DNA from: Ruminococcus sp.
Lineage (GTDB): Bacteria > Bacillota > Clostridia > Oscillospirales > Ruminococcaceae
NCBI GenBank assembly: GCA_020860605.1
Contig: JAJBTZ010000034.1
Location: 1 to 41,695, forward strand
Direction of reading: 5' to 3'
DNA length: 41,695 nucleotides
How positions within the stretch are numbered: position 1 is the first letter of the stretch; the number at the start of each line of letters is the position of its first letter. The position numbers and the translations under genes were made by a program. The notes below the pieces were generated by a model, which was given only the letters and a program-made list of their open reading frames with translations, ran no database searches and was not told the origin of the DNA. Of the stretch, positions 15,517 to 35,160 are shown in pieces.

Positions 15517-16525
15517 TCAAACGGCTTTCGATGTCTTCGATTGTTGGGATATTATCCTGTAACTCTTTATTAATCTGATTTGATAGCTTGTATTCACTGA
15601 CTCCCATAGGCTTATTTACATCTCGCAGTGCATACTCTGCTACCAATTTATCTTTGCCTTTACAAAGCAAAAGTCCTATAGTGGGGTTATCTGTAGGAGA
15701 TTTTAGTTCGCCATCAATTGCAGACAAATAGAAAGATAATTTCCCAGCAAATTCAGGCTCAAATTCTACAGTTTTTAATTCCACAACAAAATAGCAATGC
15801 AGTTTCACATTGTAGAACAATAAATCGATATAAAAGTCTCTGTTTCCAACTTTTATGGGATATTGTCTCCCCATGAAAGCAAATCCAGTGCCAAATTCTA
15901 GAAGTAGCTTTGTAATTTGTTGAACCAGAGCATCTTCTAATTCTACTTCTTTCATTTTCTTAGCATTAGGAATAAAGTCGAAAATGTAAGGGTCTTTGAT
16001 TATTTCCGCCACTTGTTCATTATAAGGATCGGCAAGTTGTGTATCAAAATTTGTTGTTTTATCAGCTAAAGCTTGACGCTCGTACAAACCGCTTTCTAAT
16101 TGGTGTACAAGTACAGTTGTTGACCATCCATTTTCAAGACATTGCCGGGTGTACCAGAGATATTCTTCCAGTGTTTCAGTTTTGTCAATCAAGATCATTA
16201 TGGCTCGCCAACTGATTTTTGCAGCAACCTGCTGCAAAATTTCTTCGGACGTTATTCTCTGTGCAAATTGCTTCATATAGTTTAAATTCCGCACTGAATA
16301 TCCTTCGACATTTGGATAAGATAGTTTCAAATCCTTTGACAGCGTCTCAACAAATCGGTTTCCCCATGAGCTATACTCGATGATGACATTTCCTATATTC
16401 CAATAGAGAATATTTCTTTCTATATTTGCGCTTGTCATTACTTGGTACTGCGCCTGAGTGATTTTGCTTTTAACTTTTTCAAGTGCATCAAAATAATCAG
16501 CCATAGCAATTTCAGATTTACTCAT
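15512..16525 (-). CDS. YhcG/DUF1016-family PD-(D/E)XK nuclease
   Basis: 337 residues. The N-terminal DUF1016 helical domain (about 1-165) contains YWNIGNVI and the YSVRNLNYMKQF segment typical of the family. The C-terminal PD-(D/E)XK nuclease domain shows RDFYIDLLFYN (Asp234) and FVVELK (Glu249, Lys251), i.e. an intact D-ExK site. ATG 16525 has GGAGG six bases upstream; the upstream in-frame start is weaker. The gene is visibly more AT-rich than its neighbours, which suggests acquisition. YhcG proteins are often found near restriction-modification loci, and here the R-M pair is 1.2 kb away. No precise role is established. Confidence 0.88.
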   Translation of the reverse strand: MSKSEIAMADYFDALEKVKSKITQAQYQVMTSANIERNILYWNIGNVIIEYSSWGNRFVETLSKDLKLSYPNVEGYSVRNLNYMKQFAQRITSEEILQQVAAKISWRAIMILIDKTETLEEYLWYTRQCLENGWSTTVLVHQLESGLYERQALADKTTNFDTQLADPYNEQVAEIIKDPYIFDFIPNAKKMKEVELEDALVQQITKLLLEFGTGFAFMGRQYPIKVGNRDFYIDLLFYNVKLHCYFVVELKTVEFEPEFAGKLSFYLSAIDGELKSPTDNPTIGLLLCKGKDKLVAEYALRDVNKPMGVSEYKLSNQINKELQDNIPTIEDIESRLN

Positions 16526-21853: not shown

Positions 21854-21990
21854 CCTAAAAGAAATCCCCACCGAGAGCTGAATACCAATAAGTAACTGAC
21901 AAAACCTACCAACTATTAGCTAACAGAATAGTGTGTACAGTATGCAGTTGGATATAAATTCAACAATATTGTGCAAAAGACAAAACAAAG

Positions 21991-22033
21991 AAAGAACCGA
22001 TTGTTATCAATCAGAAAGCAATTGGTTCTTTTT
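21991..22033. terminator. Bidirectional-type terminator between HAD and tetR genes
   Basis: Stem AAGAACCGATTG / CAATTGGTTCTT with a 15-base loop, one G-T pair, and T- and A-runs on the two sides. It lies between convergent genes. Confidence 0.7.
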
Positions 22034-22096
22034 GCTACATAATCTTTGATGCTTATTGTTTTACCAAAACGCCCGCAACTGATTTACCCATTTCTC

Positions 22097-22660
22097 TCAC
22101 ATCTCACTCTCCCTCCCAATATACCCCCTCACCCCTCCATACACCAACTTCTGCATCAGCTCGCTGATTTCTTCCGGGCTGATGTCTTTGTTTTTTTCAT
22201 GCCAACGTTCGAGGAGGCCGAACATGGCGGAGTTGACGAATGTGACGAGGTAGTCGAAGTTCTCTGAGTCGGGGTGGACGGGGAGGTATTGGGACGCAAG
22301 GGGGACCAGTTCGGTCCTGACCCTCGGCAGAAAGCTTGAATCGCCGTTTGGGCCCAGGAGAATATAGATTTCCTCGTTCATGGCGGAGAATACCATTCCA
22401 AAGAACGAAGTCGGCGAACTGTCATCCGACAAGGACTCCTGAGCTACCCCCTTGACCTTTTCTATAAGCTTGTCCTCAACATAGGACAATAAATCGTCGG
22501 TGTCCAAAAAGTATTCATAGAACGTGCTGCGATTGTAACCGGCAAGGCGGGTGAGCTCACTCACCGCAATCTTCGAGATGGGCTTTTTCTTTGCCAGAGC
22601 CCAAAAGGCGTCGACAAACTTCTGCCTTGTTCTATCTGTGATTTCTGGTTGTTTTTTCAT
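22097..22660 (-). CDS. TetR/AcrR-family transcriptional repressor
   Basis: 187 residues. The N-terminal helix-turn-helix spans about residues 8-55 (TRQKFVDAFWALAKKKPISKI, continuing VSELTRLAGYNRSTFYEYF), a clear TetR-type DNA-binding domain; the remainder is a helical ligand/dimer domain. The start at 22660 is followed by MKKQPEITDR. Its own promoter (minus strand TTGACA 22772-22767, TATAAT 22748-22743, 18-base spacer) contains the inverted repeat CAACA-GGT-TGTTG in the spacer, so autorepression is likely. The same repeat controls the divergent operon and the ABC operon at 27097. The inducer is unknown. Confidence 0.9.
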   Translation of the reverse strand: MKKQPEITDRTRQKFVDAFWALAKKKPISKIAVSELTRLAGYNRSTFYEYFLDTDDLLSYVEDKLIEKVKGVAQESLSDDSSPTSFFGMVFSAMNEEIYILLGPNGDSSFLPRVRTELVPLASQYLPVHPDSENFDYLVTFVNSAMFGLLERWHEKNKDISPEEISELMQKLVYGGVRGYIGRESEM

Positions 22661-22710
22661 TTAAAGTCGCCTCTTCTTGATTATCCAACAGTTTTGAAAA
22701 AAATTGGGGG

Positions 22711-22772
22711 TTGATAACGCCTCCATACTGAGTATAATATATATTATACAACAGGTTGTTGGTTAATGTCAA
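22711..22772. promoter_or_regulatory. Divergent promoters with shared TetR operator (site 1)
   Basis: Plus strand: TTGATA 22711-22716, 16-base spacer, TATAAT 22733-22738. Minus strand (tetR): TTGACA 22772-22767, 18-base spacer, TATAAT 22748-22743. The inverted repeat CAACA-GGT-TGTTG at 22749-22761 lies in the tetR spacer and ten bases past the plus-strand -10, so a single bound repressor would block both. A half-site with the same flank (TGTTGGATAAT on the minus strand, 22690-22680) lies in the tetR leader. Confidence 0.85.
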
Positions 22773-22815
22773 GACAAATCTTCCCGTATTTTTTGTCGGA
22801 GAGGAGGGCGGATGT

Positions 22816-23157
22816 ATGAGTAGCTCAGGAGGTGGATATGCTGTAAGCATATTCAAAGAATGGCTCAAGTGGCGAAAAGATTGGGATTCCCTTTGCACTC
22901 GCTGCGGAAAATGCTGTTACACCCGCTCTATCGACTCCGACGGAAAGGTTGTCATTCACTATGATAATCCCTGCGAATATCTTGACACGAATACGAACCT
23001 GTGCCGTGTGTATGAGGAAAGATTCAAGAGGTGCAATCACTGTGGAAAGCTTACTTTATACACAGCGCTGTTCAATACCACCTTGCCGGAGGATTGTCCT
23101 TATGTGACAACATTCCGGGTGTGGGAACGGGCTCAGGACCAAGGCAAAGATAACTGA
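22816..23157 (+). CDS. Cysteine-cluster protein (YkgJ/CxxCxxCC family)
   Basis: 113-residue small protein with CTRCGKCC at residues 27-34 (C-x2-C-x2-CC), then a Cys in NPCEYL, one in NLCRVYEER and further Cys in RCNHCGK and EDCPY. This is the pattern of the YkgJ/UPF0153 family thought to bind a metal or Fe-S cluster. Function is unknown; some family members accompany modification or redox enzymes. The ATG at 22816 is chosen because GAGGAGGG precedes it; the in-frame ATG at 22756 lies inside the operator. First gene of the TetR-controlled operon, 23 bases before the first nitroreductase gene. Confidence 0.82.
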   Translation: MSSSGGGYAVSIFKEWLKWRKDWDSLCTRCGKCCYTRSIDSDGKVVIHYDNPCEYLDTNTNLCRVYEERFKRCNHCGKLTLYTALFNTTLPEDCPYVTTFRVWERAQDQGKDN

Positions 23158-23180
23158 TATATTAATAAGGAGGAGTTCAT

Positions 23181-23711
23181 ATGCAAACATTGGAAGCAAT
23201 TGCAAAAAGAAAGTCGACGAGAAACTTTGACCCAAACAAGGCTGTTTCGAAGGAAGTCATTGACACAATAGTCAAGGCAGGCTGCCAGGCTCCTATCGGC
23301 GGAGGCAAGAGAGATTCTCTTCACCTGACTGTATGCACAAACAGGGAGATACTCGAAGAAATCAATGAGGCTACCTGTGCAGCAATGAAGATGCCCGCAA
23401 GAGATTTCTTCTACGGAGCACCTGCGGTTATCATTGTTTCCGCTTCGGAGGAACAGATGGCGCCAGGAATTGAGTATGCTAACGCTGCTTGCGTTATTGA
23501 GAACATGCTCATAGCTGCTACAGACGCAGGAGTTGACAACATCTATCTCTGGGGATCTGTTCAGGGTCTCGCAAGAAACAAGGACTTGTGTGCAAAGATG
23601 GGCATCCCGGAGGGCTTCAAGCTTGTTTCCGCTGCTGCAATCGGCTATAGCCTGAACGGCGAAGCAGAGGCAAGAGACCTCACTGTTTCCCTCAGCACAA
23701 ATTACGTCTGA
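23181..23711 (+). CDS. Nitroreductase-family flavoprotein 1
   Basis: 176 residues. The N-terminal AIAKRKSTRNFDPNKAVSKE contains the R-(S/K)xRxF phosphate-binding start seen in FMN-dependent nitroreductases, and the central LIAATDAGVDNIYLWG corresponds to the family segment that contacts the isoalloxazine ring. It should bind FMN and use NAD(P)H to reduce a nitro, quinone or similar compound. ATG 23181 has GGAGGAG upstream. Its place in a TetR-controlled operon with a second nitroreductase suggests detoxification or redox response. The substrate is unknown. Confidence 0.88.
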   Translation: MQTLEAIAKRKSTRNFDPNKAVSKEVIDTIVKAGCQAPIGGGKRDSLHLTVCTNREILEEINEATCAAMKMPARDFFYGAPAVIIVSASEEQMAPGIEYANAACVIENMLIAATDAGVDNIYLWGSVQGLARNKDLCAKMGIPEGFKLVSAAAIGYSLNGEAEARDLTVSLSTNYV

Positions 23712-23744
23712 TAAAATCACCGAAAGAACAAGGAGGTTAATATC

Positions 23745-24419
23745 ATGGCAATAACTATGAAAGAAGCAATGACAGAGCGGCACACCGTCAGAAAGTATAA
23801 GACTGACAAGCTCCCGGGGGATATTGTAGCGAAGCTCAACGAAAGAATCGATGAGAATAACTCGAGATATGCCCTGAACATCCAGCTCGTCACCGACAAC
23901 AAGGAGGCGATGCCTGGAATCATGGCTGCAACCATGTCGAAAAACGTCCTCAACTACATGATCTTAGCCGGACCCGACAAGGCTTCTACAGAGGAAATGC
24001 TCGGCTATGCAAGCGCCGACCTCATGCTCTATGCCCAGACCTTAGGTCTCAACACCTGGTGGATTGGCGGAATGTACAGCAAGAAGAACGCAAGGAAGAA
24101 TTCCATCTCTCCCGAAGGCTCGAAGATCATCGGAGTTGTCGCAGTTGGCTACGGCATGGAGCAGGGAGTTCCGCATAAGTCAAAGTCGATGGGTGAAGTT
24201 TCCACCTATGAGGGAGTCATCCCCGACTGGTTCAAGGCAGGAGTTGAGGCAGCACTCTTGGCTCCAACAGGAATGAACCGCCAGGAGTTCACAATCAAAG
24301 GCACCGGAAACGAAGTTTCGATGACCGTTCCAGAGGGCTCGTTCTCGAAAGCAGACCTCGGAATCAGCAAGTATTTCTTCGAGCTCGGTGCGGGAAAAGA
24401 GAATTTCAACTGGAAGTAA
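23745..24419 (+). CDS. Nitroreductase-family flavoprotein 2
   Basis: 224 residues. The N-terminal MTERHTVRKYKTDKL is the FMN-phosphate-binding start of the family; LMLYAQTLGLNTWWIGGMYSKK matches the segment lining the flavin, and the second half (PDWFKAGVEAALLAPTGMNRQEF) repeats a nitroreductase-like core as in the TM1586-type group. It is 33 bases after nitroreductase 1 with AAGGAGG before the ATG, so both are in one transcript. It is clearly not a recent duplicate of the first. Substrate is unknown. Confidence 0.87.
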   Translation: MAITMKEAMTERHTVRKYKTDKLPGDIVAKLNERIDENNSRYALNIQLVTDNKEAMPGIMAATMSKNVLNYMILAGPDKASTEEMLGYASADLMLYAQTLGLNTWWIGGMYSKKNARKNSISPEGSKIIGVVAVGYGMEQGVPHKSKSMGEVSTYEGVIPDWFKAGVEAALLAPTGMNRQEFTIKGTGNEVSMTVPEGSFSKADLGISKYFFELGAGKENFNWK

Positions 24420-24482
24420 ACAAAGTCGCAGTTACGCTCAGCCAGCCCACATGGCTGAATGTCAGCATATAGATAAAGCATC

Positions 24483-24512
24483 GCCCACCGAATAAGCAAC
24501 GATTTGGTGGGC
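24483..24512 (+). other. Intercistronic hairpin between nitroreductase 2 and the first Sir2 gene
   Basis: GCCCACC (24483-24489) pairs with GGTGGGC (24506-24512); there is no long T-run, so it may be an mRNA processing or partial attenuation site rather than a full terminator. The gap is 135 bases, while all later junctions in the operon overlap. Confidence 0.5.
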
Positions 24513-24554
24513 TGGTGTTTATAAACTGGTTTTTATAAATGAGGAGAAGAATTT

Positions 24555-25304
24555 ATGAGATACGAATCAGATCAGTTAAGAGAATACATGGATAAAAGCA
24601 GCAAAACTGTGGCTGTCACAGGCGCCGGTATCTCCTATTTATATGGTATGAGACGCCTGAAGCAGAGCGTTGGGCTGATGAATTCAAGACAGGTGCTCTC
24701 CCCTTCGTTTGTGAGAAGCAGCCCGGAGGATTTCTATAAAATAGTCAAGACTTCATTTTTAGACGCCACATTCGAGAAGGGTCCGAGCGAGGTTCACAAA
24801 CAGCTTGCTACTCTCGAAAAGAACGGTTTGCTTTACGGAATAGTCACCCAGAACATGGACTGCCTGCACACTATCGCCGGCTCGAAGAATGTCGTCGAGT
24901 TTCAGGGAAGCTTCGGAGACAATATCTGCGTGGACTGCGGAGCAAGATACCTTAATTATAAAATCTGGAATCATGGTCATGCTCCGAGATGCGAAAAGTG
25001 CGGTTCACCGCTGATGCCGACAATGTTCTGCCGGGAAAACAAGATAAGTGAGCAGGTATCGAAGGAAAGCATGAAAAAAGCCCAGGAAATGATTTCCGAG
25101 GCGGATCTGGTTATAATCATCGGCACCACTGGATTCAGAAGTGACGAATATCTCAAGAAGATGAGAAAAGATACAAAGCTTGTTCAGATAAATCCTTCGG
25201 AAACACCGCTTGATTCTGTTGCAACCTGGAATATCCACGCCGATGCTGCAGAGGTCCTGGGCGAAGTAATAGACGGATGGGAGAAGATAACTGATGTTCT
25301 CTAA
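24555..25304 (+). CDS. Sir2-family protein, SirTM-like (copy A)
   Basis: 249 residues. NAD-binding motif TGAGIS at 22-27, then TQNMDCLHTIAG at 98-109, and zinc Cys at 125, 128, 146 and 149. The catalytic His of protein deacylases (HG) is Gln117 here (EFQGS), and the usual GIPDFR segment after GAGIS is absent. In the SirTM (class M) sirtuins of staphylococci and streptococci, Gln replaces this His and the enzymes ADP-ribosylate a lipoylated GcvH-like protein. I therefore infer an ADP-ribosyltransferase rather than a deacetylase. No GcvH-L or lipoate ligase gene is nearby. The stop overlaps copy B by 11 bases. Confidence 0.88.
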   Translation: MRYESDQLREYMDKSSKTVAVTGAGISYLYGMRRLKQSVGLMNSRQVLSPSFVRSSPEDFYKIVKTSFLDATFEKGPSEVHKQLATLEKNGLLYGIVTQNMDCLHTIAGSKNVVEFQGSFGDNICVDCGARYLNYKIWNHGHAPRCEKCGSPLMPTMFCRENKISEQVSKESMKKAQEMISEADLVIIIGTTGFRSDEYLKKMRKDTKLVQINPSETPLDSVATWNIHADAAEVLGEVIDGWEKITDVL

Positions 25305-26004
25305 ATCAGGCAATGACGACAAGATTCAGCAGTTTGCAAAATACATCGACGACAGCCATGCTATCGTCGCTATAACCGGCGCTGGGATATCGATTTCCGG
25401 CGGTGGAGTGACCTATAGCCAGCTTTCCCGAAGCCTCAGGCCCGGAGGCTTTGAAAGCGAGTCGTTCCTGAAATCCTATGTCAAGACTATGCATCACTAC
25501 AAGCCGAGCCTCAGCCACTATGCTCTGGCAGACCTGGAGCGTGAAGGCAAACTCATCGGGGTTATCACCACGAATGAGGACTGTATGCACACGATTGCGG
25601 GCTCTCAGAATGTCGCCGAGATTCAGGGCAGCTTCCAGATCAACCGCTGCAAGGATTGTGGCAAGCATTATGACGGCTATGAAATATGGAATCAGGATGA
25701 GCTTCCCAAATGTGAGGCCTGTGGCGGAACGATACTCCCGTGGGAGCTCTACAGCCACATCGGACTCTGGGACGATGGCGTCAGAGACGCTCAGAGGTGG
25801 ATTTCAAAAGCCGACCTCATAATAGTAATCGGCACCAACGGCTACTACGGCGGTGCCTATTGGGGCTACCGCAGAAGCGACGCCGTGATTGTGCAAATCA
25901 ATCCGGGCCACACGGCATTTGACCGTGTCGCAGATTTAAATATCCGTGAAGAGTCGGATGACGTTTTTAAGCGTGTCAAGAATTGGAGAGATAAAAATGC
26001 CTGA
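25294..26004 (+). CDS. Sir2-family protein, SirTM-like (copy B)
   Basis: 236 residues. TGAGIS at 28-33, then TTNEDCMHTIAG at 92-103, Gln111 in place of the catalytic His (EIQGS), zinc Cys at 119, 122, 140 and 143, and GTNGYYGG then QINPG in the NAD-binding fold. Compared with copy A it has Thr where sirtuins have the conserved Gln of TQN, so the two are diverged and may form a heterodimer or divide substrates. GVTYSQL after GAGIS resembles the corresponding SirTM segment. It overlaps copy A by 11 bases and the PARG gene by 8, a tight three-gene unit. Confidence 0.87.
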   Translation: MFSKSGNDDKIQQFAKYIDDSHAIVAITGAGISISGGGVTYSQLSRSLRPGGFESESFLKSYVKTMHHYKPSLSHYALADLEREGKLIGVITTNEDCMHTIAGSQNVAEIQGSFQINRCKDCGKHYDGYEIWNQDELPKCEACGGTILPWELYSHIGLWDDGVRDAQRWISKADLIIVIGTNGYYGGAYWGYRRSDAVIVQINPGHTAFDRVADLNIREESDDVFKRVKNWRDKNA

Positions 26005-26977
26005 TGAAGAAAAGATGAAAGAGCTCGCCGAAAAGATGCGTGCAGCTGAAAATAAAGGCCTTACCGAAGAGCAAATCAAGGCCCGTGACGAAGAAAGAGA
26101 GAAACGCAGGCTCGAAAATATCCGTATTCTTGAGGACACACTCAGCATCCTTGAGAAGGGTTCTTATGAGAAGGACGGCAGAGAAGTTAGCCTTGGATTC
26201 TCTTCTGGTGAGATGAAAGACGCGAAGGTCTATCTTCCTGAGGATATCAAGGCCCTTGAAAAGTCGGCACCAGTCGGAAAGTGTGCTACGGAACGCGATA
26301 TCAGCTGGATTCTAAGCTGCGAAAACGAGGACGCGCTTGCTCTGGCGAAGAGAAGATACTCGGAAATGAAGAGTGCTGGGGATTTCAGCCCGAAGGTGCT
26401 GGTTCTCAATCTTGCCTCAGCCACCGAGCCAGGTGGCCACACCCGCAAGGGCGCAAGTGCTCAGGAGGAAGACCTCTGCAGGCGTTCAAGCCTCCTCTGG
26501 TCGCTCGAGAGCGAAGGCGCAAAGAAGTATTACGACTATAACAATTCCATGAAGACCCACCTGGGCTCAGACGGAATTGTCCTGTCGAAAAATGTCGAAG
26601 TTTTTAAAAGTCAGGCTTCTGAGACAATCCTTGACCCGTTTTCTATTACGGTCTTGAGCTGCGCTGCGCCGATGATCAGAATGGGACTTGAGGGACTGTC
26701 ACAGAGCGAGTATGAAGAGCTGCTGAGGGGAAGAATCCGTGGGATTCTGACGGTTGCAGCAGCTGAAAATTATCGCCATCTGATTTTAGGCGCCTTTGGC
26801 TGCGGAGTTTATGGAAACGATGCAAGCCTTGTGGCGAAGCTGTTTTATGAGGAAATTTTGGGCTTCTCCTATGCTGGAAAGCCTTCGGAAGCGCTCTTTG
26901 ACTCGATAGACTTCGCCGTCCTCTGCAAGCCTGAAAAGGATTATAATTACAAAGAATTTTGCAAGTATTTTTCGTGA
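25997..26977 (+). CDS. Microbial-type PARG (TIGR02452-like macrodomain)
   Basis: 326-residue ADP-ribose-removing enzyme candidate. A charged helical N-terminus (about 1-55, probable coiled coil) precedes a family domain with LNLASATEPGGHTRKGASAQ then EEDLCRRSSLL at 138-167. This fits the bacterial PARG signature GGG-x6-8-QEE, except that the third Gly is His148. FGCGVYGNDASLVA near the C-terminus is the second loop, binding the distal ribose. ATG 25997 has GGAGAG just upstream; the in-frame ATG at 25946 is deep inside the Sir2 gene. Next to two SirTM-like proteins it is the likely eraser of their mark. The role is inferred. Confidence 0.88.
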   Translation: MPDEEKMKELAEKMRAAENKGLTEEQIKARDEEREKRRLENIRILEDTLSILEKGSYEKDGREVSLGFSSGEMKDAKVYLPEDIKALEKSAPVGKCATERDISWILSCENEDALALAKRRYSEMKSAGDFSPKVLVLNLASATEPGGHTRKGASAQEEDLCRRSSLLWSLESEGAKKYYDYNNSMKTHLGSDGIVLSKNVEVFKSQASETILDPFSITVLSCAAPMIRMGLEGLSQSEYEELLRGRIRGILTVAAAENYRHLILGAFGCGVYGNDASLVAKLFYEEILGFSYAGKPSEALFDSIDFAVLCKPEKDYNYKEFCKYFS

Positions 26978-27021
26978 ATGAACCGATTGCGAACTATCCG
27001 ACACTTTGGGAATTGTTGGGG

Positions 27022-27072
27022 TTGACACCCAATTTCAGGCGAGTATAATATTAAGCATACAACAGGTTGTTG
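27022..27072 (+). promoter_or_regulatory. Promoter with TetR operator (site 2) for the ABC operon
   Basis: TTGACA 27022-27027, 16-base spacer, TATAAT 27044-27049, and the inverted repeat CAACA-GGT-TGTTG at 27060-27072. The -10-to-operator gap is ten bases, exactly as at site 1, and the shared block GAGTATAATAT plus ATACAACAGGTTGTTGG shows the two control regions are homologous. Expected effect: co-repression with the nitroreductase-Sir2-PARG operon. Confidence 0.87.
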
Positions 27073-27096
27073 GATAATAACAAGGAGGAAACTTTA

Positions 27097-28011
27097 ATGC
27101 CGGTAATTTCTGTAGACCATCTGACAAAGGACTACGGCCATGGCCGTGGCGTGTTTGATGTGTCTATTCAAGTTGAAAAAGGCGAATGTTACGGCTTTCT
27201 GGGACCGAACGGTGCCGGAAAGACGACTACGATACGACATCTTATGGGCTTTTCAAAGCCCGAAAAAGGCAAAACCTCTATTTCTGATATGGACAGCTGG
27301 GAACACTCGGCAGAGCTCAAGAACACCGTCGGCTATCTCCCCGGAGAAGTCACTCTCCCGCAGGGACTCTCGGGCACAGGCTTCCTTAAGATGATGGAGG
27401 GAATGCGGAACACAAAAAACGACGATTACCTGAAAATGCTGCTCGACAAGTTCGACCTCGACCCAAACATCAGCATCAAGAGAATGAGCCTTGGCGTCAA
27501 AAGAAAGCTTGCGGTTGTCACGGCTTTCATGCATGACCCGGATATTCTGATCTTGGATGAACCCACTTCAGGTCTTGACCCCGTAATGCAGGAGACTTTT
27601 ATAGACTTTGTAAAAGAGGAAAAAGCCAGAGGCAAGACAATCTTCCTCTCGTCCCACATCTTCCATGAGGTTGACGCTTCATGCGACAGGATTGCGATAA
27701 TCCGCGACGGCAAGATTGTCTCAGAATTCAAGTCGGACGAACTCAAGGCGAGCCACGACAGAATCTATCGCGTCACATTCAAGGACGAAGCCTCATACTT
27801 AAGATTCATCGAGAAGCCGTTCAGGTTTACATCGAAGAACCATGGAAAGCTTCGTGCAAGAGTTCAGATTGAGGCTGACAGAGTCGGAGAGCTGACACAG
27901 TGCCTTAGCGATTACGAAATCGCCGATTTCGTCGAGATTCCGTTTACTCTTGAAGACTACTTCATGAGTTTCTACGACACAGGTCATCATTTCGAGGGGG
28001 TGAGCAGATGA
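27097..28011 (+). CDS. ABC transporter ATP-binding protein 1
   Basis: 304 residues. Walker A GPNGAGKTTTIR near residue 38, signature region NISIKRMSLGVKRKLAVV (MSLGVKRK in place of LSGGQ), Walker B DILILDEPTSGLDP, and switch His in SSHIFHE. The C-terminal ~80 residues form an accessory domain typical of ABC-2 exporters. ATG 27097 follows GGAGG at 8 bases and gives MPVISVDHLTKDYG. Its ATGA overlap with the next ATPase gene and that gene's overlap with the permease gene define a three-component transporter. Substrate unknown; the TetR control favours export of a toxic compound. Confidence 0.9.
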   Translation: MPVISVDHLTKDYGHGRGVFDVSIQVEKGECYGFLGPNGAGKTTTIRHLMGFSKPEKGKTSISDMDSWEHSAELKNTVGYLPGEVTLPQGLSGTGFLKMMEGMRNTKNDDYLKMLLDKFDLDPNISIKRMSLGVKRKLAVVTAFMHDPDILILDEPTSGLDPVMQETFIDFVKEEKARGKTIFLSSHIFHEVDASCDRIAIIRDGKIVSEFKSDELKASHDRIYRVTFKDEASYLRFIEKPFRFTSKNHGKLRARVQIEADRVGELTQCLSDYEIADFVEIPFTLEDYFMSFYDTGHHFEGVSR

Positions 28012-28907
28012 GCGACTCAGTTATTTCCGTTCAGCATCTCACAAAGGACTATGGCATGAAGCGTGGAGTGTTTGATATATCCCTCGATATCAAGAAGGGC
28101 GAGGTTTTCGGATACTTAGGAACCAACGGTTCCGGCAAGACCACTACTATTCGGCACATGATGGGCTTTTTAAAGCCTGATTCTGGCGAAGTGGATGTAA
28201 ACGGCATCAATCCTTGGAAGAACGCTCCTGAGGTCATGAAAAACGTGAGCTACATCCCGGGCGAAATCGCCTTCCCGGATGTCAAGACTGGAACTGATTT
28301 CTTCAGAGTTCAGGCTGAGTTCCTTGGCGTCAAGGACTTCACATATATGAACTATCTTATCGATAAGCTCGGTCTCGACCCTTCTGCTAACCTGAAGCGA
28401 ATGAGCAAGGGCATGAAGCAGAAAACCGCCATAGTTGCAGCTCTGATGGGTGACAAGGAAATCCTCATAATGGACGAACCGACTACTGGTCTTGACCCGT
28501 TGATGAGAGAAACCTTCCTTGAGCTTGTCCGTGAGGAGAAGCAAAAAGGCAGAACCATCTTCATGTCGAGCCACATCTTCGAGGAAATCGAGGACGTCTG
28601 CGACAGAGTTGCCATCATAGGTAACGGCAAGATCGAAAGCGTTCTGAGCCTTTCAGACCTGAGGCATGGAACAAAGAGAAACTTCAGAATCGCTTTCGGA
28701 AACGAGGCTTCTGCCAAGAAATTCGCAGAGAGAATGCCTGAAGCAGTTCTCGATAAGCTCGAAGCTAGAGTAAGCCTTCTTGCAAGCGAAACCGACGGGC
28801 TTTTCAAGGCGCTTCGGAACCTTGAAGTAATCTCGGTTGACGAGAATCACGAGAATCTGGAGCAATACTTCATGAACATATACACAGAAGAGGAGAAAAA
28901 GAAATGA
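28008..28907 (+). CDS. ABC transporter ATP-binding protein 2
   Basis: 299 residues, paralogous to the preceding ATPase (both begin with a VxHLTKDYG segment). Walker A GTNGSGKTTTIR, signature LKRMSKGMKQKTAIV (MSKGMKQK in place of LSGGQ), Walker B EILIMDEPTTGLDP and switch His SSHIFEE are all present, so both ATPases look catalytically competent and may form a heterodimer on one permease. Start and stop both overlap neighbours by 4 bases (ATGA). Confidence 0.9.
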   Translation: MSDSVISVQHLTKDYGMKRGVFDISLDIKKGEVFGYLGTNGSGKTTTIRHMMGFLKPDSGEVDVNGINPWKNAPEVMKNVSYIPGEIAFPDVKTGTDFFRVQAEFLGVKDFTYMNYLIDKLGLDPSANLKRMSKGMKQKTAIVAALMGDKEILIMDEPTTGLDPLMRETFLELVREEKQKGRTIFMSSHIFEEIEDVCDRVAIIGNGKIESVLSLSDLRHGTKRNFRIAFGNEASAKKFAERMPEAVLDKLEARVSLLASETDGLFKALRNLEVISVDENHENLEQYFMNIYTEEEKKK

Positions 28908-30085
28908 AAGTAACGAAAGTATTTTCCTGGCCACTGTTCAAGCAGAGCCTCAGAGCTAACAGGGTTCTTTTGATAGCCTGCACTGTGGTCTTGTGCCTGA
29001 TGACGATTGTCACCACCTATGCCGGAAACCTTATCGCTGGTACTGAGTCGACTGACTACACTGATGCCCAGACCGATTTCTACAGCCATCTGTACGTCTT
29101 AGCAGCCTACAACGAGATGATGGGAACCGACTTAAGCTACGAAGACTTCGCATCTTCTGACGACACCAGCATGTACGAGACCGTTTTCGAGATGATGTCG
29201 GTACAGTCGGATGAGCTGGATTTATCAGTCGAGAAGTTTGCCGAATCGGCTGAGCTTCTTGCAGAGTCAGACGTAGGACTTGATGTTTATATCACAAACT
29301 TCGAGTATGTCTATGCCCTGGGCGCCACTGAAGGCGTCTTCACAGGCGACACTCTCGACGTCAGCACCATGATGACAAACATGTTTGAGATGATGGGAAT
29401 GTCGAGCGATATGCTCAACACCATGACCGAGATGGACACTTCGGCAATGCTCAATCAGATGTACTTCACCATCATGTGCTTGCTGCCGATTATCTTATTC
29501 ATCATCTTCGCCGGAAACGAGCTTTTCGTTGACCAGGTCGACAAGGGTTCAATGGCTTACGTCTTATCAACCCCGACAAAGAGAAGCGCTGTTGTTATCA
29601 CTCAGCTCATTTACATGATAGTCACTCCCCTTATAGTGGTCGGTTGCGGATTCATTACAAGGCTTGTGGCAACTCAGGCATTTGCAGGAGACGTTGATAT
29701 TGCGAAATATGCAGCCCTTTATGGCGGAATATATCTGCTGGCAGAAGCTATGGCGAGCATCTGCTACATGGCAAGCTGTGTCTTCAACCTCAGCAAGAAT
29801 GCTATGGCTCTCGGCGGAGGACTCAACGTATGGTTCTTCCTCTGCTCACTGTTCGGAATGTTCGGCTCCGAGACGATGGTCAGCATGGGAATGGGCGCCG
29901 AAATGCTTGGAGTCTTCAACAATCTGACTATTGTCGGACTCTTCGATGTTGAAGCACTTGGAACAGTAGGCTCAGAAGCCGTTGATTATGCTTTCGTTCC
30001 GAAACTTATAGCTTTGGTTGTAATAGCTGTGGTCTGCTACGCCATTGGCGCTGTAAGATTCCAGAAGAAAGATTTACCTCTGTAA
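28904..30085 (+). CDS. ABC-2-type permease
   Basis: 393 residues. One hydrophobic helix near residues 18-40, a long acidic extracellular-type region (about 45-180, rich in Asp, Glu, Met and Ser), then about five helices from 185 to 390. A segment FIIFAGNELFVDQVDKGSMAYVLSTP fits the cytoplasmic coupling region of ABC-2 permeases (split as FIIFAGNELF / VDQVDKGSMAYVLSTP). It is the only permease with the two ATPases. The predicted large external domain is unusual for simple drug exporters. Confidence 0.82.
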   Translation: MKVTKVFSWPLFKQSLRANRVLLIACTVVLCLMTIVTTYAGNLIAGTESTDYTDAQTDFYSHLYVLAAYNEMMGTDLSYEDFASSDDTSMYETVFEMMSVQSDELDLSVEKFAESAELLAESDVGLDVYITNFEYVYALGATEGVFTGDTLDVSTMMTNMFEMMGMSSDMLNTMTEMDTSAMLNQMYFTIMCLLPIILFIIFAGNELFVDQVDKGSMAYVLSTPTKRSAVVITQLIYMIVTPLIVVGCGFITRLVATQAFAGDVDIAKYAALYGGIYLLAEAMASICYMASCVFNLSKNAMALGGGLNVWFFLCSLFGMFGSETMVSMGMGAEMLGVFNNLTIVGLFDVEALGTVGSEAVDYAFVPKLIALVVIAVVCYAIGAVRFQKKDLPL

Positions 30086-30199
30086 TCATAAGATCACATT
30101 AAGGGAAGTGATGCGTGGACTTAAAAAAGGTGAAGGGAAAACAGGACGGTAGTAAGTTTGAGTTTGAAAATATAGATTTTATTGGAGGAATGTTTTCAT

Positions 30200-31996
30200 A
30201 TGCTTCATATTTTTGGAAATATGAAGACCAAGGACAGGTGGCTCGCACTTCTGTGTGTGCTGCTTGTTTGCGGTCAGGTTTATTTTGATTTGCGCCTGCC
30301 CGATTACACCGCTGAAATCACAGTTCTTATAAGCAGTGAAGTAACCGAGCTGTCGCAATACTTCGTAGCAGGCGGAAAGATGCTCGCCTGTGCCTTGTGC
30401 AGTGCTTTGCTGACGGTTATAGTCGGATATCTGTCCGCTATGATTGCAGCTGACTTCTCTTATGACGTCAGAGCGAAGCTCTTTGACAAGGTCACTTCCT
30501 TCGGCCCCGGTGAGATAAAGAAGTTCTCAACCGCAAGCCTCATCACCCGTACCACCAACGATATTACCCAGATTCAGATGATAATCTCGATGGGCCTTCA
30601 AATGCTCATCCGTGCCCCCATTATGGCTATCTGGGCGATTATCAAGATAGTCGGCAAGAGCTGGGAGCTCTCGGTTGTCGTAGCCTCGGCAGTCGTTATC
30701 GTCGTCGGAGCGCTGATTGTTATACTCGCGATTATGATTCCGAAGTTCAGAATCGTCCAGAAGCAGATTGATGACGTCAACAGAATCACCGAAGAAAACC
30801 TGAACGGCATCAGAGTTGTCAGAGCTTTCAATGCTGAGGATTATCAGGAGTCGAAGTTCGACAAGGCCAACACAAACCTCATGAAGACACAGCTCTTCAC
30901 AGGTCGCGGAATGGCGGTTCTGTCGCCGATTATGATGTTTGTGCAGAGTGGCGTCAGCGTTGCTATCTACTATGTCGGCGCAATTCTCATTAACAATATT
31001 GAAGTTCCGTTAAGTGGCACTGCTGCTGAAATCGCAACCGCAATTTCCGAGCGCTCGAATATGCTCGGCGAAGTCGTCTCGTTCAGCTCGTATGCGCTCT
31101 ATGTCATCATGTCGTTCGTAATGCTTCTGATGATATTCATGCTCCTTCCCCGTGCACAGGTTTCTGCAGCCAGAATCAACGAGGTCCTCGATTCGGATAT
31201 TGCCGTCAAAGAGGGCAGCGAAACCGCTTCAGACGAAACCGGCACAATAGAATTCAAGGATGTCTCCTTCCGCTATCCCGATGCTTCTGAGGATTGCCTC
31301 AAGCATATAACCTTCTCGGCTAAGAAGGGCGAAACAGTCGCCGTCATCGGCGCCACTGGTTCAGGTAAATCGACCTTGGGCGGACTCGCTGCAAGGCTTT
31401 ATGATGCCACTTCGGGAACGGTTCTTCTCGATGGCAAGGAAATCTCGAAATACGATTTTGAAACGCTTTATAAGAAAGTCGGATATATTCCCCAGAAGGC
31501 GACTCTGTTCTCAGATACCGTTGAGGGCAACCTGAAGTTCGGCTCAACGAGAAACAATATCACCTATGAGGAAATGGAAAACGCCATGGACATCGCCCAG
31601 GCTTCCGACTTTGTCCATGCTATGGATGATGACGTCCAGAGCAGAATTGCTGCAGGCGGTTCAAACGTCTCAGGCGGTCAGAAGCAGCGTCTTTCAATCG
31701 CCAGAGCGGTTGCAGGCAAGCCGGAAATCCTCATCTTCGACGACTCCTTCTCGGCTCTTGACTATAAGACCGACCGTGCACTCCGTCAGAGAATCAAGAC
31801 TGACCTTGACGGCACGACCTGCCTCATCGTCGCCCAGAGAATCGGAACCATCCGCCATGCCGACAAGATTATCGTTTTGGATGATGGTGCGGTTGCAGGA
31901 ATCGGCACTCATGATGAACTCATGAAGAATTGTACCGTTTACCAGCAGATAGCTTTGTCACAGCTCTCGGAAGACGAGCTTGCGGTGAATGCATAA
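30200..31996 (+). CDS. Heterodimeric ABC exporter subunit (degenerate site)
   Basis: 598 residues: six-helix ABC exporter membrane domain (about 1-330) plus nucleotide-binding domain. Walker A GATGSGKSTLGG, signature VSGGQKQRLSI, and Walker B LIFDDSFSALD in which the catalytic Glu is Asp. This is the degenerate half of a heterodimeric multidrug-type exporter such as LmrCD, BmrCD or TM287/288; the next gene has the intact half. ATG 30200 lies 11 bases after GGAGG; the in-frame TTG at 30182 has no ribosome-binding site. About 115 bases separate it from the ABC-2 permease gene, with no terminator seen, so it is probably in the same TetR-controlled transcript. Confidence 0.9.
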   Translation: MLHIFGNMKTKDRWLALLCVLLVCGQVYFDLRLPDYTAEITVLISSEVTELSQYFVAGGKMLACALCSALLTVIVGYLSAMIAADFSYDVRAKLFDKVTSFGPGEIKKFSTASLITRTTNDITQIQMIISMGLQMLIRAPIMAIWAIIKIVGKSWELSVVVASAVVIVVGALIVILAIMIPKFRIVQKQIDDVNRITEENLNGIRVVRAFNAEDYQESKFDKANTNLMKTQLFTGRGMAVLSPIMMFVQSGVSVAIYYVGAILINNIEVPLSGTAAEIATAISERSNMLGEVVSFSSYALYVIMSFVMLLMIFMLLPRAQVSAARINEVLDSDIAVKEGSETASDETGTIEFKDVSFRYPDASEDCLKHITFSAKKGETVAVIGATGSGKSTLGGLAARLYDATSGTVLLDGKEISKYDFETLYKKVGYIPQKATLFSDTVEGNLKFGSTRNNITYEEMENAMDIAQASDFVHAMDDDVQSRIAAGGSNVSGGQKQRLSIARAVAGKPEILIFDDSFSALDYKTDRALRQRIKTDLDGTTCLIVAQRIGTIRHADKIIVLDDGAVAGIGTHDELMKNCTVYQQIALSQLSEDELAVNA

Positions 31997-32011
31997 GGAG
32001 GTGCTTTGATT

Positions 32012-33853
32012 ATGCCAGAATCTAATTCAAGACCGATGGGTCGTGGACCCGGAGGAAGAGGCCCCATGGGAGGTGGCAGAGGCATGTCAGGCGGTAAAGC
32101 TAAGGACATGAAAGGCGCCCTCTTAGGACTTCTCAAATATATCAGCAACCAGACGGGAATCATAGTGTTCGCACTTGTTTTAGCTGCAGCAGGTGCTATT
32201 CTCACTATTATAGGACCGAACCAGCTCAGCCGTCTTACAGACTACATCTATGATGGCTTGACGACTTCAATAGACATGGACGGCGCTCTGAGCGTCGCAT
32301 TGCTCCTGCTCGGCCTGTACCTTGCAAGTGCGGTATTCAGCTTTTTGCAGCACTACATCATGCAGACTGTCACCCAAAGAACCTCTAAGAGGCTCCGTGG
32401 CGACATCAGCTCGAAGATCAACAAACTTCCTCTGAAATACTTCTCAGGCAACGCTGCCGGTGATGTACTTTCGAGAATGACCAACGATGTCGATATGATA
32501 GGTCAGGCTATGTCAAACAGCCTTTCAAACCTCGTCACCGCAATCGCTCAGTTCATCGGCTGCCTCATCATGATGTACTACACCAACGCCATCATGGCGA
32601 CAACAACCGTTCTTGCGACAATAGTCGGAATGATCTTCATGGTAGTAATCATGAGCCATTCGCAGAAATACTTCACAGCAAGACAGGAGAACTTAGGCAT
32701 CCTGAACGGCTATATTGAAGAGATGTACAACGGCCACGATGTTATAAGAATCCTCAATGCTGAGGGCGAGGTCAAGGACACCTTTACATCCATGAACAAG
32801 GCTGTCAAGAACGCCAACTTCCGCTCACAGTTCCTTTCGGGACTTATGCAGCCTATCATGACCTTCATCGGCAACTTCAGCTATGTCGCTGTCTGCGTTG
32901 TCGGTGCAGCATTGATTATTGACGGTCAGATAACCTTCGGCGTCATCACCGCTTTCCTGATCTATACAAGACTCTTCGAGTCTCCACTCCGCCAGATTTC
33001 TCAGGCTATGACTCAGGTTCAGTCCTGTGCAGCAGCTTCTGAAAGAGTATTTGAATTCCTGGCAGAAGATGAGATGGAAGACGAGTCGGATAAGACCCAG
33101 AAAATCGAGAACGTTAAGGGCAAAGTTGAATTTAAGAATGTCAAGTTCGCCTATCCGAATGCTCCTGAGAAGGAAATCATCCATAACTTCAGTGTGAAGG
33201 TCGAGCCTGGACAGAAGGTCGCAATCGTCGGACCCACTGGTGCCGGCAAGACGACTATGGTCAACCTCCTGATGCGATTCTTCGAGCCCACAGGCGGAGA
33301 AATTCTCATCGACGGCATTTCGACCCAGGACGTTCCGAGAAGCAATGTCCACAACCAGTTCGGAATGGTTCTTCAGGACACATGGCTCTTTGAAGGAACC
33401 GTCAGGGAGAATCTCCTCTACAACACGGAAGGAGTAACAGATGAACAGATGGAGGCAGCCTGCAAGGCTTGCGGAATCCACAGCTTCATCAAGGCGCTCC
33501 CGAACGGCTACGATTCAGTCCTCAGCGACAACACAGCAATTTCTGCTGGCCAGAAGCAGCTGATGACTATCGCAAGAGCAATGATCCAGAACAGCCCGAT
33601 GCTTATCTTGGATGAAGCGACCTCGAGCGTCGACACGAAGACCGAGATGATCACTCAGGAGGCTATGGATAAGCTGACTGATAAGCGCACCAGCTTCGTC
33701 ATCGCCCACCGCCTCTCGACCATCAAAAACGCCGACATCATCCTCGTCATGCGAAACGGCGACATCGTCGAGCAAGGCACCCATGATGAGCTCCTCGCCA
33801 AAGGTGGCTTCTACGCCGAGCTGTATAATAGCCAGTTTGAAGAGGTGGCGTAG
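32012..33853 (+). CDS. Heterodimeric ABC exporter subunit (catalytic site)
   Basis: 613 residues. A Gly/Met/Arg-rich N-terminal tail (PMGRGPGGRGPMGGGRGMSG, about 8-27) precedes the six-helix membrane domain. The NBD has Walker A GPTGAGKTTMVN, signature ISAGQKQLMTI (ISAGQ replaces LSGGQ) and Walker B LILDEATSSVD with the catalytic Glu. It complements the degenerate partner encoded 15 bases upstream. ATG 32012 is preceded by AAGGAGG; TTG 32006 is a close alternative. A long hairpin and a terminator follow. Confidence 0.9.
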   Translation: MPESNSRPMGRGPGGRGPMGGGRGMSGGKAKDMKGALLGLLKYISNQTGIIVFALVLAAAGAILTIIGPNQLSRLTDYIYDGLTTSIDMDGALSVALLLLGLYLASAVFSFLQHYIMQTVTQRTSKRLRGDISSKINKLPLKYFSGNAAGDVLSRMTNDVDMIGQAMSNSLSNLVTAIAQFIGCLIMMYYTNAIMATTTVLATIVGMIFMVVIMSHSQKYFTARQENLGILNGYIEEMYNGHDVIRILNAEGEVKDTFTSMNKAVKNANFRSQFLSGLMQPIMTFIGNFSYVAVCVVGAALIIDGQITFGVITAFLIYTRLFESPLRQISQAMTQVQSCAAASERVFEFLAEDEMEDESDKTQKIENVKGKVEFKNVKFAYPNAPEKEIIHNFSVKVEPGQKVAIVGPTGAGKTTMVNLLMRFFEPTGGEILIDGISTQDVPRSNVHNQFGMVLQDTWLFEGTVRENLLYNTEGVTDEQMEAACKACGIHSFIKALPNGYDSVLSDNTAISAGQKQLMTIARAMIQNSPMLILDEATSSVDTKTEMITQEAMDKLTDKRTSFVIAHRLSTIKNADIILVMRNGDIVEQGTHDELLAKGGFYAELYNSQFEEVA

Positions 33854-33868
33854 GAATCCCTCTATGGG

Positions 33869-33900
33869 CACACGACTTTCCCAATGGAAAGTCTAGTGTG
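33869..33900 (+). other. Hairpin after the ABC exporter operon
   Basis: CACAC-GACTTTCC / GGAAAGTC-TA-GTGTG with a CAAT loop and two unpaired bases. It is followed by TTATACCTTT, so it may contribute to termination. Confidence 0.6.
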
Positions 33901-33951
33901 TTATACCTTTGCAAAATAGTCGTCGGACGAAAACGAAATATTGTATTACAA

Positions 33952-33984
33952 AAGGGAGCCAATTGGGGCTCCCTTGTTGTTTTA
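33952..33984 (+). terminator. Intrinsic terminator of the ABC operon
   Basis: AAGGGAGCC / GGCTCCCTT stem with a six-base loop followed by GTTGTTTTATT. Confidence 0.8.
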
Positions 33985-34231
33985 TTCGGCTGTTTTGGAA
34001 AGGTATATCAGGCTCCCACTTGTCGCTTCTTTCCGAATATCTTCATTACGAACAGGACAAATCGCTCGCGATACTCTGTGTTGATGACGATATGCGTATA
34101 GAAGCACTAAGGCAAACAAATTACGTCAAGTAAATAGTAACAGCTCAAGGCAAGATGGATTTAGAACGCAAGGGAAAGCAGAGCTACCAAGGATATATGT
34201 TTGCAAGGCTTTTAGGACCCGCAAGTATTGT
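33985..34231. other. Stretch without a recognised gene
   Basis: The only open frames are short and unlike any family I know. The DNA may include decayed sequence from the same element as the recombinase remnant that follows. Confidence 0.5.
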
Positions 34232-34597
34232 ATGGCCGTAGCATATATACATCTCTGTGAAGAAGCATCCTCAAGCTCAAAGGACTTGCATGAGATTTAT
34301 CGGATGTGGTGCGAGGAGAACTCCCTTATCCCACTCAAGTCCCGAAGCTTCAGCGATTGCATGGTAGCGAATGCCGACAAGTGTTACACCGACATCATCT
34401 TCCCAAGTCTTGATGTGCGATTCATCGCTATTAACGACGGAGTGGACAGCGAAAAGGGAGACTCAGACGGCTTCTCCGCTATAAGAAATCTGTTCAACGA
34501 ATGGTATCTCAGGGACACCAGAAAAAAGATTCGGGCAGTTTTCAGGCAGAAAGGCACGAGTGGAAAGCACATCGGAAATCCTGTTTTCGGCTATTTT
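34232..34597 (+). pseudogene. Remnant of a large serine recombinase
   Basis: About 122 residues show resemblance to the Tn4451/TnpX-type serine recombinases: FIAINDGVDSEKG, then RNLFNEWYLRDTRKKIRAVF and GTSGKHIGNPVFGYF, which match the conserved block after the catalytic domain (typically RFIAINDxVDS, NEWYxRDTSKKI, GKHxxxxPPYGY). The N-terminal YIHLCEE would align with YxRxSxE, so the catalytic Arg and Ser positions appear to be His and Cys, and most of the catalytic domain is missing. Past residue 122 the frame enters unrelated DNA. A dead fragment of an integrative element; the exact left end cannot be set. Confidence 0.75.
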
Positions 34598-34640
34598 TTA
34601 TTGCGGAACCAATCGTCTACGAGCAACCGCAAAGAAACAG

Positions 34641-34669
34641 AAAAACGGCGTGACCGTGTGGTCACACCG
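34641..34669 (-). terminator. Terminator of the RelB antitoxin transcript
   Basis: Minus strand: CGGTGTGACC-ACAC-GGTCACGCCG with one mismatch, followed by TTTTTCTG. It lies 50 bases beyond the truncated toxin stop. Confidence 0.75.
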
Positions 34670-34720
34670 CTTTCTTGGCTGATAGTTACTTGTGGGTATT
34701 TAACTAATGGTGGGGATTGT

Positions 34721-34876
34721 TTATTTCTGCTTAAGAATATCCAAGAGCTCTCTTGCCGTTACAATAAACGGTTTCACAAGAAAATGCTTCAGGTTTCCAG
34801 TAACGAGGTAAGCTCCACTGTCCTGTTTATCGAGAACCACTTCGTAGAAGGGCAGGTCTTTCAGTCTTCGTCCCTC
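34721..34876 (-). pseudogene. C-terminal remnant of a PIN-domain toxin
   Basis: Downstream of, and overlapping by a few bases, the antitoxin stop, one frame encodes LKDLPFYEVVLDKQ, DSGAYLVTGNLKHF and TARELLDILKQK before a TAA at 34723-34721. This is the end of a COG1569-type PIN toxin: VLD and LVTGN..HF carry late acidic and structural positions. Upstream in frame there is a stop (TGA) and no start codon, so roughly the N-terminal 80-90 residues, including the first catalytic Asp, are missing. An internal deletion appears to have fused the antitoxin end to the toxin C-terminus. Confidence 0.78.
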
Positions 34877-35160
34877 TCACTTCTTGCAAGCCTGATTTCT
34901 TCGTTGATTTCGTCAAGGCTCAGGTCCTGAACGCCGTTTTCCTTGGCCTGATCGCGAAGCGTGGTGAAGGCTTGCATCCCGGTCTGTCTTGTGACTTCAT
35001 CTGAAGCCTGAATCTCGAACGGAATCCTTCTTTCTCTGACCACGGCGCGGGCAAAGACGTTGAACGCGGTGGTCGCGTTCATGCCAAAATCGGCACAGAG
35101 GGCGTCAAACTGCTTTTTCAAGCCCTCGTCCATTCTTACACTGAAAGTTGATAAAGCCAT
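34861..35160 (-). CDS. RelB/DinJ-family antitoxin (orphan)
   Basis: 99 residues. The N-terminal ribbon-helix-helix ALSTFSVRMDEGLKKQFDALC (split as ALSTFSVRMDEGLK / KQFDALC) with FGMNATTAFNVFARAVV is characteristic of RelB/DinJ antitoxins that bind DNA as dimers, and the acidic C-terminus would bind a toxin. The protein is intact; its PIN-type toxin is only a fragment. The start at 35160 has GGAGG (minus strand) about seven bases upstream. Its promoter carries two palindromic operators, so autoregulation is expected to persist. Confidence 0.88.
   Translation of the reverse strand: MALSTFSVRMDEGLKKQFDALCADFGMNATTAFNVFARAVVRERRIPFEIQASDEVTRQTGMQAFTTLRDQAKENGVQDLSLDEINEEIRLARSERDED

Follow-up and report, generated by a model that had tools for sequence, protein, structure and literature searches.

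A predicted TetR regulon linking nitroreductases, a sirtuin pair, a PARG and two ABC exporters in Ruminococcus

Contig JAJBTZ010000034.1 of Ruminococcus sp. (assembly GCA_020860605.1), analysed over its 41,695 nucleotides and referred to below as the window, carries at positions 22,097–33,853 a block in which a gene for a TetR-family regulator (tetR) is divergent to genes for a cysteine-cluster protein (CxxC), two nitroreductases (NR1 and NR2), two Sir2-fold proteins with Gln-Gly (QG) in place of the catalytic His-Gly (HG) (SirA and SirB) and a poly(ADP-ribose) glycohydrolase (PARG), followed by five genes, abcA–E, for ATP-binding cassette (ABC) exporters. In our best overall explanation, which we regard as probable, the block forms a single autoregulated regulon for stress and efflux. 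As judged from the operator sequences and their conservation, TetR very likely binds and co-represses both operons; it is somewhat favoured by the sequence evidence that the sirtuins carry out ADP-ribosyl transfer, and the chances are about even that the inducer is a xenobiotic or an electrophile.

Operators and promoter geometry

The inverted repeat CAACAGGTTGTTG (CAACA-GGT-TGTTG) lies at 22749–22761 (site A) and 27060–27072 (site B), as a preliminary description of this DNA had it, and a search of the whole 2,280,560-base genome returned these two exact copies and none besides, with no exact match to the reversed control. In the window the pattern CAACA-N3-TGTTG occurs twice, against a mean of 0.01 in shuffled sequences, and 0/100 shuffles reach two. 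When up to two mismatches are allowed there are three matches, the third at 16222–16234, against a shuffle mean of 0.84, with 6/100 shuffles reaching three; this relaxed count is not clearly beyond chance, so the case stands on the two exact copies. At either site exactly ten bases separate the repeat from a TATAAT box (22733–22738 and 27044–27049), again as described, and a 16-base spacer separates that box from its −35 element, TTGATA at 22711–22716 for site A and TTGACA at 27022–27027 for site B. The homology of the flanks is borne out by this common layout of a TTGAYA-type −35 box, 16 bases, TATAAT, ten bases and repeat, and also by an ATCC(G/A)ACA box (22683–22690 and 26996–27003) about 20 bases above the −35 element of both promoters. 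The latter box, kept in relatives and seen at some of the other TetR loci, looks like a lone half-site and may be a further TetR site of wide spacing. On the minus strand, TTGACA (22767–22772) and TATAAT (22743–22748) make up the tetR promoter, whose 18-base spacer encloses the whole first repeat, in agreement with the position assigned to it earlier. The relatives show a longer palindrome around the 13-mer, TTATaCAACAggtTGTTGgATAA.

The TetR protein scores 38.1 bits with PF14278, above the gathering score of 26.1, and 20.5 bits (4.1e-4) with the helix-turn-helix family PF00440 (TetR_N), below the 24-bit cut-off. TetR-controlled ABC efflux operons have a divergent, autoregulated tetR and an operator that overlaps the promoters. 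The block is like these general operons in its divergent, predicted autoregulated tetR and in its ABC-2 and MsbA-like exporters, and unlike them in that a nitroreductase-sirtuin-PARG operon would come under the same regulator through a further operator some 4.3 kb distant.

In the mechanism that we propose, TetR would bind the palindrome at sites A and B. At site A it would shut two promoters: its own, in whose −35/−10 spacer the operator lies, and that of the CxxC-NR1-NR2-SirA-SirB-PARG operon, where ten bases separate the −10 box from the operator; at site B it would block the abcA–E promoter, which is laid out in this second way. Release of TetR from both sites would come from an inducer, for which a stress metabolite or a xenobiotic of hydrophobic or electrophilic kind, such as a nitro compound or a quinone, is the likeliest candidate. 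Reduction of the inducing compound, or of products related to it, would then fall to the nitroreductases, the two exporters would pump the compound out, and the QG-type sirtuins would spend NAD+ to ADP-ribosylate a target from which the PARG could clear the mark.

Conservation of the block and recurrence of its parts

The SirA protein was sought in 99 genomes, the own genome included, of which 31 belong to the genus of the window. The Sir2 pair is present in ten of these 31, with SirA identities of 87–94% in the nine relatives, and all nine have the identical order tetR, CxxC, (NR1), NR2, SirA, SirB, PARG, abcA–E, NR1 being missing in three of them (L036, L039 and L040). In aligned intergenic regions site B is recognisable in 10/10 genomes, once with a single mismatch, and site A in 9/10, its half-sites being exact or having one mismatch, so that the operator is kept in relatives at both positions. 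Across the nine relatives the 13-mer differs from that of the window at 6/117 positions for site A and at 1/117 for site B, and the 70 bases upstream differ at 105/630 and 191/630 positions, respectively, with gaps scored as differences and with site B of L033 entered by its last 72 bases only. This same locus (G030:C26) has two copies of abcA–D, the first of which adjoins a stretch of N and a chimeric promoter; a recent duplication or an assembly effect may account for this.

The median synonymous divergence (dS) of the tested genes is 0.5 to 2, and median ratios of nonsynonymous to synonymous change (dN/dS), rough because some genes are almost saturated with synonymous change, are 0.062 for SirA, 0.041 for SirB and 0.119 for PARG (nine pairs each), 0.079 for TetR (eight pairs) and 0.03–0.05 for the three ABC genes tested in the nine relatives. 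The genes tested are clearly kept, with purifying selection on both Sir2 genes and PARG. Outside the block the flanks mostly differ, with four shared pairs among the 11 genomes compared (the left flanks of G027 and G030, the right flanks of G001 and G019, the right flank of G008 with the left of G013, and the left flank of G001 with the right of G024), several of the compared flanks being short contig ends of less than 900 bases. Differing flanks around an intact block imply that the block was relocated, or that its surroundings changed, with the interior staying together.

An operator search covering 20 of the 31 genomes of the genus gave sites of two mismatches or fewer only at the cassette of the ten carriers (in G001 at site B alone) and at tetR of G008, and three-mismatch matches elsewhere were about as frequent as for a control pattern. 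TetR itself is present in 11 of the 31 genomes and the Sir2 pair in ten, all inside those 11 (Fisher p 2.5e-7, ignoring kinship).

Beyond the genus, TetR was sought in 297 genomes of the family, themselves taken from a larger set; 20 loci turned up in 19 of them, two of the loci coming from the genus of the window. For 15 of the 20, the 220 bp upstream contain CAACA-N3-TGTTG with no more than one mismatch, against a mean of 0.3 and a maximum of 3 in shuffles. Half-sites at a 2-base gap are seen at L131 and L136, and at L141 and L142 the recognition helices are altered and the 3-nt-spaced site is missing. An ABC gene related to abcA–E lies in the fetched flank of 11/20 loci, in four cases at only about 30% identity. 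The two informative ARRANGEMENTS are G008 and G333. The former has a run of tetR, one operator, CxxC, NR2 and abcA–E, and may either have lost the Sir2/PARG block together with promoter B or never have had them, a concatenated tree giving it no firm place. The latter, from another genus, has abcABC-NR1-NR2-SirA-SirB1 in a single run with a divergent tetR and an operator with a 2-base spacer; no PARG match was found within the fetched stretch. At three further loci (L079, L088 and L108) a TetR of 57–61% identity is divergent to an NR/CxxC-SirA-SirB1-PARG operon. Taken with G333, these arrangements indicate that the tie between TetR family, nitroreductase and sirtuin recurs outside the genus of the window. 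Operator-like promoters were also observed before SirA at L083 (upstream of 3112) and L074 (upstream of 10001), with no close tetR homologue seen adjoining by eye, which suggests that these promoters are controlled in trans.

Several observations weigh against a single regulon. Site A of G001 (L038) is one base shorter and may be damaged. Five of the 20 TetR loci are without a 3-nt-spaced site, L130 has no such site yet has an ordinary recognition helix, and the sites at L079 and L108 have two mismatches. The G008 block gave no match to NR1, Sir2 or PARG and no second operator. At 21/47 loci outside the genus the gene opposite the sirtuin-PARG module is an Rrf2 gene, and at 2/47 it encodes a TetR of at least 50% identity; abcABC is near the module in 0/30 such loci and abcD/E of at least 70% identity in 7/30. 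The Rrf2 partners and the absence of abcABC imply that the TetR/ABC tie is lineage-specific and that the functional tie is not universal; TetR/ABC control of the module looks like a local recruitment, as far as gene neighbourhoods tell. Finally, site B may derive from a duplicated promoter, and then its presence alone is no proof of selection for co-regulation.

Alternatively, TetR would be a plain ABC efflux repressor, and the sirtuin/nitroreductase operon, with a separate role, would hitchhike via the duplicated tetR-abcA promoter. The similar flanks of sites A and B, ATCC(G/A)ACA box included, agree with such an origin, as do the Rrf2 partners elsewhere, the lack of Sir2 and PARG in G008 and the loci where tetR stands with exporters alone: tetR, operator and abcA–E with no further cassette genes at L204 (G192), tetR with abcD–E alone at L205, and tetR with abcABC at L206 and L208. 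We nevertheless hold hitchhiking to be unlikely, since both operators have been kept in ten genomes, the one damaged site A aside, at the synonymous divergence given above, and since the order of the block is held across mostly different neighbourhoods. The single run of nitroreductase, Sir2 and abcABC genes behind a TetR in another genus and the TetRs divergent to sirtuin operons at L079, L088 and L108 also speak for the one-regulon explanation. That one repressor controls itself and both operons, as the preliminary description proposed, therefore gains from comparative genomics, through the two operators of the ten genomes, the half-sites at homologous TetR loci and the G333 run; from these we infer TetR binding and co-response, as we do repression, the inducer and all enzymatic activities from sequence comparison.

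The QG sirtuins and their PARG partner

The catalytic HG is replaced by QG in 174/174 scorable Sir2 open reading frames (ORFs; 180 in all, six not being scorable by pattern), and in SirA and SirB the GIPDFR segment is replaced as well. Unlike the canonical sirtuins CobB, Sir2Tm and Sir2Af, the block sirtuins thus have neither the catalytic His nor GIPDFR, and their GTS loop is altered. SirA reads GTTGFRS and SirB GTNGYYG, and both are missing the GVGxNTP motif, which reads GVGFNTP in the class M (SirTM) sirtuin of the same genome. A tree built from 58 selected rows places SirA, SirB and SirC in one clade (support 99/100) and class M in another (100/100), a single origin of all QG forms with class M as sister not being rejected (p-AU 0.55). 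The sirtuin rows of this tree came from 16 chosen of 81 loci, with ORFs of at most 200 aa and also L104_12 and L113_4, which have no subfamily pattern, left out; class M rows came from nine of 23 Zn-macrodomain loci with a BLAST hit, reduced to eight when the divergent L159 was dropped, and canonical rows from 12 of 19 loci. Mean identity of the SirA/B-type sirtuins to class M is 20–22%. The preliminary description had called the pair SirTM-like; the QG change is indeed common to both, but the missing motif, the separate clade and the PARG in place of a Zn-macrodomain partner rule out that these are class M SirTM proteins.

The genome of the window also carries a class M SirTM/Zn-macrodomain locus (L148) on another contig (G000:C1:81421-82194 and neighbours), with the Zn-macrodomain NF003163 over its cut-off. 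Its neighbours include what reads as a nitroreductase and a flavin/ferredoxin-like protein; the locus is thereby like the block in holding a nitroreductase-like gene. The SirTM/Zn-macrodomain operons of Rack et al. 2015 (PMC4518038) and Ariza et al. 2024 (PMC11490716) share with the block the HG-to-QG change, a sirtuin beside an ADP-ribose-removing macrodomain-type gene and linked flavin oxidoreductases. Measured against these operons, the block differs in its separate sirtuin clade, the missing GVGxNTP, a PARG that is not a Zn-macrodomain protein, the tandem paralogues, and the ABC exporters and TetR. GCV_H, the family of the GcvH-L substrate, had no match in G000, G019, G029 and G008; in the remaining 7/11 genomes its matches were partial and weak, with E about 5e-4. 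No GcvH-L or LplA2 gene was seen in the block. Of the 50 fold matches listed, none bears the name of a class M structure, which carries no weight either way. PADLOC gave no anti-phage defence match for six proteins. Phage and plasmid matches to SirA are all below 60% identity, the best among the eight listed of 67 and 35 records being 33% for plasmids and 36% for phages, and no relative was confirmed in viral contigs.

The PARG scores 97.6 bits with PF10021, against a cut-off of 23.5, and the QEE pair is kept in 47/64 PARG ORFs by pattern, the remaining 17 being unmatched by pattern and unscored. It is like the solved microbial PARGs 3sig and 5zdf, which we take to be those of Thermomonospora curvata and Deinococcus radiodurans, in its family and its QEE pair. 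The GGG motif described ahead of QEE for PARG (PMC7050489) is where it departs from the solved proteins: the third Gly is H, Q or R in 47/47 scorable PARGs, GGH in the window, which counts against our overall explanation. Its partners are sirtuins, and those of the D. radiodurans PARG are ligase and kinase-phosphatase genes according to PMC11833690. The same paper reports that bacterial PARGs remove ADP-ribose from RNA too, so the substrate here need not be protein.

The loss of the catalytic His from every scorable ORF and the replaced GIPDFR of SirA and SirB would be expected if the sirtuins were inactive, or were sensors of NAD or ADP-ribose rather than enzymes. We find this quite doubtful in view of the strong purifying selection and of the finding (PMC4518038) that a class M enzyme with Gln in place of this His is an active transferase; loss of GIPDFR is common to class M as well.

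Outside the block the wider module includes an AMP-binding enzyme in 18/45 loci, often joined by a GNAT acetyltransferase and an esterase, and all of these could modify small molecules. Given also that exporters stand under the same regulator, the QG sirtuins might ADP-ribosylate the small-molecule inducer itself, as the rifamycin ADP-ribosyltransferase Arr modifies a small molecule, in a xenobiotic-inactivation kit where PARG would limit side reactions. Such a role is rather improbable, because a PARG is expected for macromolecular ADP-ribose, the tandem Sir2 paralogues suggest protein complexes or several targets, and the AMP-binding, GNAT and esterase genes are not in the block of the window. 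ADP-ribosylation of a target reversible by PARG is the reading that we retain.

In some Clostridia (L053–L123) there are several modules of sirtuins and PARG, and their Sir2 proteins fall into as many as four subfamilies. In G057, of another genus in the same family, a SirA of 67% identity lies with SirB, PARG and NR2 on one contig and a SirA-PARG pair lies on another; in these copies (L042 and L112) the NR2 match is split over two frames and there is one stop codon in the PARG stretch examined, and this copy may be decaying. As a tentative generalisation, to which we give slightly less than even odds, SirA, SirB1, SirB2 and SirC would be a second, non-class-M class of QG sirtuins that work in sets as ADP-ribosyltransferases, their marks being removed by a GGx-type PARG. 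This module of anaerobic Clostridia would be wired to nitroreductases and flavodoxin and plugged into Rrf2 or TetR control, and would join redox or xenobiotic stress to reversible ADP-ribosylation and, within one genus, to multidrug efflux as one programme.

Features of the block and implications

The features are collected in Table 1. The SirB gene overlaps that of SirA by 11 nt and that of PARG by 8 nt, which suggests translational coupling of the three. The start of abcD is probably near 30200 in reality, and abcD and abcE probably form a heterodimeric exporter. The hairpin motif follows 37/78 examinable NR ORFs (22/53 NR1 and 15/25 NR2) and often precedes SirA (L044–L123). In 21 sequences selected for carrying the motif, changes that affect both partners of a pair occur, in one or more sequences, at six of the ten consensus pairs; several pairs are disrupted in as many as six sequences, and the covariation term has the small value of −0.42. 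The hairpin, which has no Rfam family match, may lower transcription into the sirtuin genes; over 21900–34300 Rfam gave no known RNA element, with one chance-level match below the gathering score. Just beyond the 3′ end of the block lies a RelB-type antitoxin gene (34861–35160). A serine-recombinase-like look of 34232–34930 was rejected, Pfam giving no match there.

Table 1. Coordinates and assignments of the features of the block (window positions).
Feature	Position	Strand	Assignment and basis
tetR	22097..22660	−	TetR-family regulator (TetR_C_8), predicted repressor, recognition helix AGYNRSTFYEYF; PF14278 1.8e-9; HTH in homologues
Operator A with TATAAT and ten bases	22733..22766	+	13-mer 22749-22761; extended palindrome about 22744-22766
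tetR promoter TTGACA-18-TATAAT, operator A in spacer	22743..22772	−	Read from sequence; relatives' sequences
CxxC	22816..23157	+	YcgN-type cysteine-cluster protein, putative Zn/Fe-chelating, 113 aa; NF003504 1.9e-18, PF03692 3.2e-4, both below cut-off
NR1	23181..23711	+	Nitroreductase; PF00881 1.4e-17; missing in 3/9 relatives
NR2	23745..24419	+	TM1586-type nitroreductase; PF14512 2.4e-59
Hairpin, NR-SirA intergenic	24477..24524	+	Conserved, GC-rich, attenuator- or terminator-like
SirA	24555..25304	+	Sir2 fold; catalytic HG to QG (EFQG), GIPDFR segment replaced
SirB (B2 subfamily)	25294..26004	+	Second Sir2-fold protein with QG (EIQG)
PARG	25997..26977	+	Microbial-type poly(ADP-ribose) glycohydrolase, QEE kept, GGG to GGH; PF10021 1.1e-27; 3sig 1e-28
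Operator B with TATAAT and ten bases	27044..27077	+	13-mer 27060-27072
abcA	27097..28011	+	ABC-2-type exporter ATPase; PF00005 1.7e-22
abcB	28008..28907	+	ABC-2-type exporter ATPase; PF00005 1.7e-23
abcC	28904..30085	+	ABC-2 membrane permease; PF12679 2.1e-14
abcD	30182..31996	+	Half of MsbA-like ABC exporter; TIGR02203 2.4e-90 (below cut-off); PF00664, PF00005
abcE	32006..33853	+	Other half of MsbA-like ABC exporter; TIGR02203 8.3e-127 (below cut-off)

The preliminary description considered such a joint programme not to be a described system. A keyword search of the open-access literature, with subscription papers and preprints outside its scope, returned class M work and reviews, among which no account was seen of a QG sirtuin-PARG-nitroreductase operon or of such genes under one TetR with exporters; on that search this part of the claim appears to hold, with the class M operons as the related known kind.

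If the proposed regulon is real, sirtuin-driven reversible ADP-ribosylation in bacteria would not be limited to SirTM/Zn-macrodomain pairs, and gut anaerobes would have a recurrent stress module made up of a distinct clade of QG sirtuins and their PARG erasers. A compound that lifts TetR from the 23-bp site should switch on the module, which makes the trigger of a bacterial ADP-ribosylation system testable. In the genus of the window, expression of this module would be tied to multidrug-type export through one small-molecule-sensing repressor.

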